Shown here: piece after piece, positions 4,058 through 31,435 of the stretch
Layout of the letters: each line of letters starts with the position of its first letter
Position numbering within the stretch: the stretch's first letter is position 1
Assembly: GCA_947586625.1 (NCBI GenBank)
Contig: CANPXS010000013.1
Coordinates: 1-33,446, forward strand
DNA: 33,446 nucleotides
DNA from: an uncultured Clostridia bacterium
Lineage (GTDB): Bacteria; Bacillota; Clostridia; Oscillospirales; CAG-272
Direction of reading: 5' to 3'
Notes under the pieces: model-generated
What the model saw: the letters and a program-made list of their open reading frames with translations, nothing else
What the model was told of the DNA's origin: nothing
Databases searched by the model: none
Position numbers and translations under genes: made by a program

Positions 4058-4124
4058 CGGACGCCGCCTGCGGCAAGCCTGCCGCACAACATATTTCCAA
4101 AATGGTTGACGCTCCTATTTTCGG

Positions 4125-4310
4125 GCATCGCGCCGTAGGCTTCGCAGCTTCACCTACGCGCACCGTGCTCGTGCGTTGATGGCGTGCCCAGCGTTGGACG
4201 CAGACACGACGTCTTGACGGCGATATCGCCCCGTCGCGAGGGAGCTGTTCGCAGGCTTCCCGCCTCACCTGCGTATGCTGCCTCTTGCTGTAACTGCTTC
4301 ACCTCATCTG
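4125..4310 (-). ncRNA. Candidate structured ncRNA, copy A
   Basis: Starts just downstream of a TTGATA-N17-TATAAT promoter. Contains 5' hairpin gcaggtgaggcgggaagcctgc, conserved core aacagctccctcgcgacgg...gtcgtgtctgcg...gcacgagcacggtgcgc and 3' hairpin cgtaggtgaagctgcgaagcctacg. Repeats at 7431..7558, 26566..26728 and 27117..27235. Confidence 0.5.
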
Positions 4311-4315
4311 CCTAT

Positions 4316-4344
4316 ATTATACCACAATTTTAGTGATTTATCAA
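4316..4344 (-). promoter_or_regulatory. Promoter of ncRNA copy A (TTGATA-N17-TATAAT)
   Basis: Reverse complement: ttgata aatcactaaaattgtgg tataat ataggcag; conserved with 7895..7923 and 26733..26760. Confidence 0.75.
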
Positions 4345-4420
4345 GTACTTTTCACGAATTTATGTATTTTTCACTTCACGCATAATCGTTCAACTGCATC
4401 CTTCACTGGTATTTCCGTTC

Positions 4421-4541
4421 ACCACGGTTCAATGTACAGTCTGTACCGACCGGCAACTATCTTTGCACATTTTACGTGGTGACGTCTTTCACACCAACAA
4501 ATAGGTTTTTGACAAGGGGGACTTTCTCGCAAGAAAGAGAA
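4421..4541 (+). repeat. Dispersed repeat block Y, copy A
   Basis: accacggttcaatgtacagtctgtaccgaccggcaactatctttgcacat...cgtggtgacgtctttcacacc...aggtttttgacaagggggactttctcgcaagaaag; matches 7643..7759 (inverted) and 26895..27024. Confidence 0.85.
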
Positions 4542-4551
4542 AGTGCGGGAT

Positions 4552-4582
4552 GAGGACCCTTTCTTAAAAAGAAAGGGTCCTC
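4552..4582 (+). terminator. 14-bp perfect stem-loop with cccccgaaccccct tail
   Basis: GAGGACCCTTTCTT aaa AAGAAAGGGTCCTC then cccccgaaccccctctccaaaagaac. Confidence 0.6.
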
Positions 4583-4735
4583 CCCCGAACCCCCTCTCCA
4601 AAAGAACACCGCGCCATAGCTGTGTGCGAGCAGCTCCGCGCGGCGTTTTATTATTGCGAAAAGTTTGGGGATGCCGGTTCTGCGCCGCGCGTATGCGACT
4701 ATAAAAAACTTTCGCGGAAATTTTCAAAAAATTTC

Positions 4736-4796: not shown

Positions 4797-5666
4797 TTGA
4801 AACTTGAATTTTCCCATATACAAAAGTCGTTCGGTGCAAAGCATGTTCTCGATGACATATGTTTCTCCGCCGAGTCCGGCGACGCGTTCGGACTTCTCGG
4901 ACGAAACGGAGCGGGTAAAACGACGTCGATACGCATACTCATGGATGTTTTCCCCGCCGACGGCGGCGAGATACTCGTCGACGGCAGACCCATCGACCGC
5001 TCGCGCATCCGCTTCGGCTATCTGCCCGAGGAGCGCGGTCTTTACCCGAAAAAGAAGATATTCCCCCAGCTCGTCTACTTCTGCGAGCTGTTCGGCGTGG
5101 AACATTCTGACGCAACAGCGTCCGTGGACAAATGGCTGCGCAGGCTGTCGATGTACGAGTACCGCGACAAGCGTCTCGACACGCTCTCAAAGGGCAATCA
5201 GCAGAAAATACAGCTAATAACGGCGCTCGCCCACGATCCCGACGTGATAATTCTCGACGAGCCGTTCTCGGGGCTCGATCCCGTCAACGCGAGACTGCTC
5301 AAGGATGTCGTCAAAGAGCAGATCGAGCGCGGGAAGATAGTGCTGTTTTCGAGCCATCAGATGAGCTATATCGAGGAATTCTGCGACTCGATAGCGATTC
5401 TGGCGTCGGGTAAAATCGGAATAACCGGCAGACTGCACGACATCAAGCGCTCGTATCCGCGCGATACGCTGATCGTGTCCTCGCCGGACGCCGCCGCGAT
5501 AGCAAACGAATACGGCGTCGAGGCAGGGGAGGACGGGATAGTGGAGGTGCGCATGAACGGCGATAAACGCGCCGTGATAAAGTCGCTCGCCGAGCGCTAC
5601 GATATAGACGAGGTGCGCGTCAAGGAGCCGACGCTGTCCGATATCTTCGTCGAGTACGCGAAGTAA
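4797..5666 (+). CDS. ABC transporter ATP-binding protein (ABC-2 exporter type)
   Basis: Walker A GLLGRNGAGKTTS, signature LSKGNQQKIQ, Walker B DVIILDEPFSGLDP, H-loop SSHQM. Likely TTG start with RBS gaggtg. Confidence 0.92.
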   Translation: MKLEFSHIQKSFGAKHVLDDICFSAESGDAFGLLGRNGAGKTTSIRILMDVFPADGGEILVDGRPIDRSRIRFGYLPEERGLYPKKKIFPQLVYFCELFGVEHSDATASVDKWLRRLSMYEYRDKRLDTLSKGNQQKIQLITALAHDPDVIILDEPFSGLDPVNARLLKDVVKEQIERGKIVLFSSHQMSYIEEFCDSIAILASGKIGITGRLHDIKRSYPRDTLIVSSPDAAAIANEYGVEAGEDGIVEVRMNGDKRAVIKSLAERYDIDEVRVKEPTLSDIFVEYAK

Positions 5667-7244: not shown

Positions 7245-7300
7245 GCATTTCCTCACTGCGTGCGGAGCTCACACTTTCCGCTTTACGGAAAGTGTCGGAG
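7245..7300 (+). repeat. Dispersed double-hairpin repeat H, copy 1
   Basis: cctcactgcgtgcggagctcacactttccgctttacggaaagtgtcggag; related to 7767..7825, 26512..26568, 26832..26893. Confidence 0.7.
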
Positions 7301-7430: not shown

Positions 7431-7558
7431 CCGTGCCGTAGGCTTCGCAGTTTCACCTACGCGCTCCCTACTCGTGCGCTGACGGCGCGTCAAGTTTCAA
7501 ACGCAGACACGACGTTTGGACGGCGCAATCGACATGCCGCGAGGGAGCTGTTCGCAGG
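7431..7558 (-). ncRNA. Candidate ncRNA core, copy B1 (no adjacent promoter)
   Basis: Reverse complement ctgcgaacagctccctcgcggcatgtcgattgcgccgtccaaacgtcgtgtctgcgtttgaaacttgacgcgccgtcagcgcacgagtagggagcgcgtaggtgaaactgcgaagcctacggc aligns with copy A. Confidence 0.45.
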
Positions 7559-7642
7559 AAGTGTTGGCGCGGTGTTCTTTTGGAGAGGGGGTTCGGGGGA
7601 GGACTTTTTCTTATGAAGAAAAGGTCCTCATCCCGTCCTATC

Positions 7643-7759
7643 TCTTTCTTGCGAGAAAGTCCCCCTTGTCAAAAATCTGTTCAAAGGTGTGAAAGACGTC
7701 ACCACGTCAGGTGTGCAAAGGTAGCTGCCGGTGGGTACAGACTGTACATTGAACCGCGT
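7643..7759 (-). repeat. Dispersed repeat block Y, copy B (inverted relative to copy A)
   Basis: ctttcttgcgagaaagtcccccttgtcaaaaatctgttcaaaggtgtgaaagacgtcaccacgt...gtgcaaaggtagctgccggtgggtacagactgtacattgaaccg. Confidence 0.85.
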
Positions 7760-7766
7760 GTGAGCA

Positions 7767-7825
7767 GTATCTCCTCACTTCGTTCGGAGCTACGACACGT
7801 TTCCGCTTCGCGGAAAGTGTGGGAG
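7767..7825 (+). repeat. Dispersed double-hairpin repeat H, copy 2
   Basis: agtatctcctcacttcgttcggagctacgacacgtttccgcttcgcggaaagtgtgggag. Confidence 0.75.
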
Positions 7826-7894
7826 AAGTCAGTTATGGATACAGGTGAGCGTTTACGCAAAAAGTAAAAAAATACATAAATTTGTGAAAATCAC

Positions 7895-7923
7895 TTGACA
7901 AATCACAGGTTTTGTGGTATAAT
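7895..7923 (+). promoter_or_regulatory. Perfect consensus sigma-A promoter inside the dispersed element (TTGACA-N17-TATAAT)
   Basis: ttgaca aatcacaggttttgtgg tataat ataggcag; the A/T-rich upstream block aaatacataaatttgtgaaaa is shared with the other copies. Confidence 0.8.
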
Positions 7924-7925
7924 AT

Positions 7926-8000
7926 AGGCAGTCAAGGGAGATAAGGCGATTGCGGCGAGCCACTGTGCGCGTAGGTGAGGCTGGGAAGCCTTACGGCGGC
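7926..8000 (+). ncRNA. Truncated candidate ncRNA, copy B2 (5' leader fused to 3' hairpin, central core missing)
   Basis: aggcagtcaagggagataag...ccactgtgcgcgtaggtgaggctgggaagccttacggcg keeps the first and last segments of copies A and C. Confidence 0.35.
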
Positions 8001-8054
8001 AGTTCGCAGCTGACGCGACAAGTATAAAAACACGCAAAGTATGCCTGCGCCGGC

Positions 8055-8083
8055 TTGACACGAGATGTAAAATATGGTACTAT
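8055..8083 (+). promoter_or_regulatory. Sigma-A promoter of the GH43-rhodanese-GH3 operon (TTGACA-N17-TACTAT)
   Basis: ttgaca cgagatgtaaaatatgg tactat; 92 bp upstream of the GH43 ATG. Confidence 0.7.
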
Positions 8084-8174
8084 CGTTCTTAGATGAGATG
8101 TATAAAATAAAGCTTGAAAAGAACTGATGCGCCGTGACGACCGCGCGCAAAACAGCCGAAACGGAGGAAAAGTT

Positions 8175-26511: not shown

Positions 26512-26568
26512 CCACACTTTTCGCGTAAGCGAAAACGTGTAGTAGCTCCGAACGAAGTGAGGAGATAC
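26512..26568 (-). repeat. Dispersed double-hairpin repeat H, copy 3 (directly 3' of ncRNA copy C)
   Basis: Reverse complement ggtatctcctcacttcgttcggagctactacacgttttcgcttacgcgaaaagtgtggt. Confidence 0.75.
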
Positions 26569-26728
26569 CGGCTTCCCAGCCTCACCAATACGCACTGTGC
26601 TCGTGCGTTGACGGCGCGTCCAGCTTTAAATGCAGACACGACGCTTGGACGGCGATATCGACCCGTCGCGAGGGAGCTGTTCGCAGACTCTCCCGCTCAA
26701 CCTACGAACATCTCTTTCCCTTAACTGC
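26566..26728 (-). ncRNA. Candidate structured ncRNA, copy C
   Basis: Reverse complement aggcagttaagggaaagagatgttcgtaggttgagcgggagagtctgcgaacagctccctcgcgacgggtcgatatcgccgtccaagcgtcgtgtctgc...gcacgagcacagtgcgtattggtgaggctgggaagccggtat; aligned with A, B1 and D. Confidence 0.5.
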
Positions 26729-26732
26729 CTAT

Positions 26733-26760
26733 ATTATACCACAAAATCTGTGATAGTCAA
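26733..26760 (-). promoter_or_regulatory. Promoter of ncRNA copy C (TTGACT-N16-TATAAT)
   Basis: Reverse complement ttgact atcacagattttgtgg tataat ataggcag. Confidence 0.75.
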
Positions 26761-26831
26761 GTACTTTTCACAAATTTATGTATTATTTTTTCGTTTTCGC
26801 GTAATCGCTCGTCCGTTGCCATAGCTGGGTG

Positions 26832-26893
26832 CTCCCACGCTTTTCGCGAAGCGAAAACGTGTCGTAGCTCCGAACGAAGTGAGGAGATACTGC
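26832..26893 (-). repeat. Dispersed double-hairpin repeat H, copy 4
   Basis: ctcccacgcttttcgcgaagcgaaaacgtgtcgtagctccgaacgaagtgaggagatactgc. Confidence 0.75.
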
Positions 26894-26894
26894 T

Positions 26895-27024
26895 CACACG
26901 CGGTTCATTGTGCGATGCGCTCCCACCGGCAACTATCTTTGACTATCAGACGTGGTGACGTCTTTCACACTTTTGAATAGGTTTTTGACAAGGGGGACTT
27001 TCTCGCAAGAAAGTCCCCCTTGTC
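26895..27024 (+). repeat. Dispersed repeat block Y, copy C, ending in a 17-bp perfect hairpin
   Basis: cacacgcggttcattgtgcgatgcgctcccaccggcaactatctttg...cgtggtgacgtctttcacac...tttttGACAAGGGGGACTTTCTcgcaAGAAAGTCCCCCTTGTC. Confidence 0.85.
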
Positions 27025-27116
27025 GAACCCGAAAGAGGCTCCCGTGTGTTCGTCGATGTTATCCAGTCGGCGGCAAAAAAGGCGACGGGGCGTAGACCGC
27101 GTCAACATATCGGCAT

Positions 27117-27235
27117 AACAGCTCCCTCGCGACGTGTCGACTGCGCCGTCTAAGCGTCGTGTCTTCGTCGAACGATGGGAGCGTCGAGCATCGCACGAGC
27201 GCGGTGCGTGAACGTGAAGCTGGGAAGCCTACAGC
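27117..27235 (+). ncRNA. Candidate ncRNA core, copy D (no adjacent promoter)
   Basis: aacagctccctcgcgacgtgtcgactgcgccgtctaagcgtcgtgtcttcg...gcacgagcgcggtgcgtgaacgtgaagctgggaagcctacagc. Confidence 0.42.
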
Positions 27236-27291
27236 GAGTTTCTATATTTGGACGGCGGCACGGTCACTTCGCGAAAAGCGTATGCCATGCA

Positions 27292-31346: not shown

Positions 31347-31435
31347 ACCACACTTTTCGCGAAGCGAAAAGTGTAAGACGGCTTCGAGTGTAACGAGAAG
31401 ACGTTACACACACGTTTTCGCGAAGCGAAAAGCGC
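31347..31435 (+). repeat. Tandem TTTTCGCgaaGCGAAAA hairpins (repeat H-related), copy 5
   Basis: cacttttcgcgaagcgaaaagtgt and acgttttcgcgaagcgaaaagcg separated by aagacggcttcgagtgtaacgagaagacgtt. Confidence 0.7.

Follow-up and report, generated by a model that had tools for sequence, protein, structure and literature searches.

A high-copy mosaic repeat with inverted core ends is a candidate recombination hot spot in a gut Clostridia lineage

The window analyzed here is a stretch of 33,446 nucleotides that constitutes contig C13 of an uncultured Clostridia genome (G000, a draft assembly of 2.39 Mb in 164 contigs). It carries three copies of a repeat of about 600 bases that is restricted to this gut Clostridia lineage. 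The explanation that we consider reasonably probable is that this repeat is a mosaic of the Correia or BIME kind, whose inverted cores serve as homology arms for ectopic exchange and in this way shuffle promoter orientation and chromosome order. We regard it as an apparent hot spot of recombination, and neither as a demonstrated jumping gene nor as an RNA pair.

Results and Discussion

Copy number and distribution of the repeat

The three copies in the window are A (4122-4640), which is absent from the initial annotation of this DNA, B (7431-8000), and C/D (26512-27235). As that annotation had recommended, the genome was searched with the element itself. BLAST returned dozens of matches, and examination of their flanks yielded at least 54 distinct composite copies with their parts in a fixed order, a number that far exceeds chance in 2.39 Mb. 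In the congener G007, 39 copies were catalogued from the retrieved part of its genome. Copy totals vary with BLAST thresholds and with which stretches were retrieved.

The full composite was seen only in G000 and G007. Another congener, G004, carries many copies of a related half-unit composed of hairpin, leader, and core, in which the hairpin stem has a different sequence and perfect pairing is kept. At four loci of that genome (L048, L050, L054, and L056), approximately 230 bp separates the leader from the core, and this insert begins with a diverged version of the first bases of the core, which suggests a tandem duplicate. A core query gave matches in 3 of the 39 genomes searched, the source genome included. 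An exact core word occurs in G007 and, among other GTDB species, elsewhere only in unrelated genomes in a chance-like manner. Among 248 genomes of the family, matches that extend beyond short hairpin or leader fragments are confined to G000 and G004; G007 is missing from that listing, and its copies were established by other searches. A match to the core pattern in RUG299 (L192) spans only about 20 bp and was taken as chance.

Anatomy of the composite

Nearly all copies present their parts in one order: a core (R1), a sigma-70 promoter directed outward, an optional H module, block Y, a perfect hairpin, a leader of one of two alternative types (I or II), and a second, inverted core (R2). A minority of copies have a promoter directed inward or an R1 core that is absent or truncated. 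The elements sit in intergenic DNA and have no coding capacity, which bears out the initial observation that no transposase is present within them. Coding by the core was excluded, since single-base gaps shift the reading frame between copies.

Each core is about 115 bp long, and the distance from core to core is 471-849 bp in the 29 copies that have both. The initial annotation had described the cores as long imperfect terminal inverted repeats, and this description holds. The two cores within an element are 80.6% identical, compared with 80.4% for cores from different elements. One core is often truncated or absent, and the tails outside the cores are of at least three types, the H repeat among them, so that the outer boundaries are inconstant. 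H is itself a palindromic repeat, independent of the composite, whose short ends are inverted (GTATCTC...GAGATAC) and whose presence inside the larger elements varies. At locus C49, for example, it lies within the element in G000 and is absent from the G007 orthologue. H also occurs on its own, and it is found in other members of the genus, such as G006; an additional H repeat lies at 31350-31374 of the window.

For copy C/D, the composite order that had been described from the letters alone was recovered, with the parts at or near the positions first assigned to them. An outer H (26514..26568, plus strand), which contains two small hairpins and is 98% identical to the inner H, abuts core R1 at the promoter end (26570..26686, minus strand; initially called ncRNA C). 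The sigma-70 promoter region (26713..26800, minus strand) is directed leftwards into R1, with its -10 hexamer at 26733-26738 and its -35 hexamer at 26755-26760 on the same strand, separated by a 16-nt spacer. Then follow, on the plus strand, the inner H (26837..26890), which is the optional module, and block Y (26891..26978), a conserved interior module. Next is the perfect hairpin (26984..27027), a part whose stem sequence varies, with pairing kept, in G004 and in some other copies. The right-hand portion, again on the plus strand, consists of the type II leader of R2 (27028..27116), core R2 (27117..27229; initially called core D), which has no promoter, and the variable tail of R2 (27230..27272).

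The region at 7431-8000 had been read as a mirror image of this arrangement with one core at each end. The mirrored order is correct, but a full core is present at one end only. Copy B comprises core R2 (7441..7557, minus strand; B1), a hairpin arm beside a type I leader (7644..7678), block Y (7680..7766, minus strand), and H (7767..7820, minus strand). Its promoter (7859..7939, plus strand), with TTGACA at 7896-7901, a spacer of 17 nt, and TATAAT at 7919-7924, is directed toward a gene starting at about 8127. The R1 remnant (7956..7990, plus strand; B2) retains only the outer 35 nt or so of the core. An H-type repeat (7247..7295, minus strand) lies to the left of this copy. Copy A has core R1 (4138..4255, minus strand), a promoter (4302..4371, minus strand) directed away from an ABC-transporter gene at 4797, and block Y, hairpin, and type I leader (4425..4637, plus strand); its second core is absent.

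A conserved promoter

Conservation of the promoter is the clearest sign of a maintained function. Across 71 promoter copies, the -35 hexamer is 98.6% conserved and the -10 hexamer 99.1%, compared with 79% for the spacer outside the extended -10, and the pattern TTGACN-16/17-TATAAT fits 64 of the 71. The promoters have no clear bias toward gene starts (40/70 promoter-side genes versus 30/59 on the other side), and many of them run directly into flanking DNA without an intervening core.

The copy C promoter aims at the starts of neighboring genes (window 26182-25382) that by sequence form a Wzz-like/CpsD-like operon, and the copy B promoter (window 7859-8127) aims at the start of a glycosidase-like gene. 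These two promoters may drive those genes.

Reversal and replacement at orthologous sites

Site-by-site comparison was made with G007, the one sufficiently close congener. Both assemblies are fragmented drafts, and the comparison covers approximately 1.36 Mb of one genome and 0.9 Mb of its counterpart. The sequences that flank G000 elements were mapped onto 1.36 Mb of G007, and the junctions were then annotated. The initial annotation had proposed a search for empty sites; none of a simple kind turned up among the loci in this partial coverage whose two flanks are contiguous in both genomes. Several other flanks in G007 have no element, but neither did the partner flank turn up next to them there. 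What the comparison showed instead was reversal, replacement, and re-pairing of flanks at the elements. Contiguous flanks with an element in both species were seen at C28, C30, C53, C60, C49, and C75 with C64 joined. Largely, then, sites are occupied and boundaries differ between copies, which is the outcome that had been named in advance as contrary to a mobile element.

Twenty-two junctions with interior sequence in both species were scored by eye from the annotated comparison. The same end of the element touches the flank at 12 of these (C28, C41_L, C22_L, C51_R, C57_R, C77_R, C49, C13C_L, C60_L, C75, C38b_L, and C11c_R), and the other 10 are reversed (C10_L, C57_L, C55_L, C13A_R, C53, C30, C27b_R, C101_L, C113_R, and C6_R). 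At C30 and C53, reversal has occurred between flanks that are contiguous in both genomes. The copy A junction is among the 10 reversed ones: its promoter faces away from the ABC-transporter gene in G000, and the promoter at this flank in G007 faces toward that gene.

The interiors that occupy orthologous sites are usually not the closest matches of one another. Of some 15 loci that could be tested, only about 3 (C49, C60 as a tie, and C101) have an interior whose best match is its orthologue. Simple in-place inversion of one copy is weakened as an explanation because the interiors at reversed loci are mostly not mutual best matches. Cores at orthologous junctions are anywhere from 100% identical down to the level of paralogues (~80%), and their identity switches abruptly, either within a core or at the outer margin, which points to conversion as a putative cause. 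Ectopic conversion and crossover between dispersed copies fit the mismatch of interiors, the switches in the cores, and the fact that partner cores are no more alike than other cores.

Elements at synteny breakpoints

We compared 25 synteny-block ends that are internal in both assemblies. Ten of them have an element within 800 bp in at least one of the genomes, where about 2.4 would be expected for either; random positions fall this close to an element in 4.3% (G007) and 5.4% (G000) of cases. At many breakpoints, just one of the two genomes has the element. On contig C2 of G007, an element joins sequences that are located on contigs C11 and C26 of G000, and at locus C101 an inversion of 8.4 kb ends at an element. 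Some breakpoints could be assembly joins; false joins are less likely because the copies differ by approximately 20%.

How exchange through the cores might proceed

Because the ends of an element are inverted copies of one sequence, exchange in either orientation is possible, and any two elements might recombine or convert through their cores. Conversion would exchange interiors and flip the promoter relative to its neighbors, and crossover would re-pair flanks and invert chromosome segments. By using both inverted cores, a donor interior could be inserted either way around, and the near-even split of orientations would follow because the interior fits either way. Transcription from the promoter would give a short RNA that runs through R1, and a neighboring gene may incidentally be driven as well.

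Besides the draft state of the assemblies and the breakpoints with an element in one genome only, two considerations weigh against this scheme. RecA-type recombination should work poorly on sequences of 115 bp that are 80% identical, and replacement and reversal could be explained equally well by a dedicated recombinase or by repeated insertion at one site. A repeat present in so many copies, with its strong promoter conserved and its ends quasi-palindromic, would offer a simple route to rewiring transcription and gene order in this gut lineage. Concerted evolution through inverted repeats could be tested on it, and it carries a warning that draft genomes of this lineage break or rejoin at these repeats.

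Alternative explanations

It is possible, if rather doubtful, that the element is a non-autonomous transposon (MITE), in which the cores would serve as terminal inverted repeats for a transposase encoded elsewhere and now lost or in an unassembled region. Inverted ends, small size, lack of coding capacity, high copy number, intergenic location, and the presence of a promoter and hairpins are usual MITE traits (PMC10969869), and repeated insertion could account for replacement of copies at one site. The initial annotation had proposed a non-autonomous mobile element as one of its two readings. The likeness to MITEs and BIMEs stands, but the evidence looked for does not favor transposition. Target-site duplications, which had also been suggested as a check, were not found in 29 elements by a test that is blind below about 9 nt, as the tail ends vary; the longest word shared by the two flanks is 7.79 nt for real pairs versus 7.89 nt for mismatched pairs. 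Simple empty sites are likewise missing, end sequences vary among copies, and the search for Y1 (IS200/REP-type) transposases detected none in G000 or G007. Inverted terminal repeats and noncoding character are shared with MITEs, with frequent truncation or loss of one core. We do not claim membership among MITEs, since neither target duplications nor empty sites were found within the limits of the tests.

A second alternative, which we judge unlikely, is that the element exists as the carrier of R1, which would be a functional small RNA or leader from a family of structured regulatory RNAs. The near-consensus promoter is kept in almost all copies, and the 5′ arms of R1 form longer stems than do shuffled sequences (mean 9.7 versus 6.7 bp), with some compensating changes. 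The loop of the R1 5′ hairpin can moreover pair with the conserved sequence CTCCCTCGC just downstream; these stems and this pairing are suggestive only. However, among the 15 pairs predicted by RNAalifold on 41 cores, a double change occurs in just one, such that covarying base pairs do not characterize the core. The folding energies of the copies in the window are not clearly better than those of shuffles (z of -0.14, 0.27, and -1.48), and those promoters that enter the flank directly have no core to transcribe. Rfam, at gathering and relaxed thresholds, gave no RNA family match inside the element; the sole match near one is an adjoining tRNA (L041 1672-1745). The divergent RNA pair once proposed for the two cores is not supported, because R2 lacks a promoter and lies behind the hairpin leader and because the cores are without covariation. 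Transcription is predicted from one core only.

We find it quite improbable that the element is an inverton-like phase switch, in which a recombinase acting in the cores flips the promoter reversibly within cells. The single outward promoter does lie between inverted repeats, orientation differs at 10/22 orthologous junctions, including that beside the ABC-transporter gene, and matches to tyrosine recombinases number 11-12 in G000, G007, and G004 versus 1-7 in nine congeners. Nevertheless, the reversed loci mostly contain different copies rather than one copy flipped, the promoters are not biased toward gene starts, the crossover point is not constant, and the prominent tyrosine recombinases adjoin a different repeat of 21-24 bp.

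G000, G007, and G004 also carry the repeat family. One recombinase family of 316 amino acids adjoins a segment of approximately 290 bp with inverted repeats of 21-30 bp (ACATTATCTGCATAATGTGGT), found at L313 1107-1440, L316 1105-1443, and L319 2057-2392 (G000 contigs C132 and C134, and G007 contig C133). The inverted repeats are perfect in L313 and L316. Segment and recombinase lie next to a helicase-like gene in what looks like an invertible promoter cassette present in several congeners. These enzymes were set aside as candidates for the cognate invertase, their own inverted repeats being unrelated to the core.

Least probable, in our estimation, is that a dedicated recombinase uses the cores as its attachment sites and that the promoter-bearing interiors are cassettes exchanged and flipped among more than 50 sites, in which case strong promoters would be shuffled genome-wide.

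Comparison with known systems

Several known systems resemble the mosaic repeat that we propose to recombine through its cores. The Correia repeat enclosed elements (CREE) of Neisseria are short noncoding intergenic sequences with inverted ends, of which more than 120 copies have been reported, and they have sigma-70-like promoters and reported inversion (PMC10969869). The repeat described here is likewise noncoding and intergenic, with inverted ends and a sigma-70 promoter, a likeness drawn from description. It differs from CREE (size 204) in its length of about 600 bp and in its ends, which are cores of about 115 bp at 80% identity, and also in that no target-site duplication was found for it. 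Its restriction at the level of the genus argues against homology to Correia repeats.

Invertons have inverted repeats of 10-40 nt and an invertase that acts upon them (PMC11892184). The element shares with them a promoter between inverted repeats and an orientation that varies between genomes. In contrast to the short repeats with a recombinase that are expected of an inverton, its repeats are long and imperfect, and its content is replaced rather than merely flipped.

BIMEs, which are built of REP sequences, are modular mosaics with palindromic units arranged in inverted intergenic pairs. Inverted pairs of palindromic units, modularity, and intergenic location are all found here, but the units are much longer and come with a promoter and a defined order, and the REP-associated Y1 (RAYT) transposase was not found in the source genome. 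The closest system by behavior is the Correia element, and the closest by construction is the BIME.
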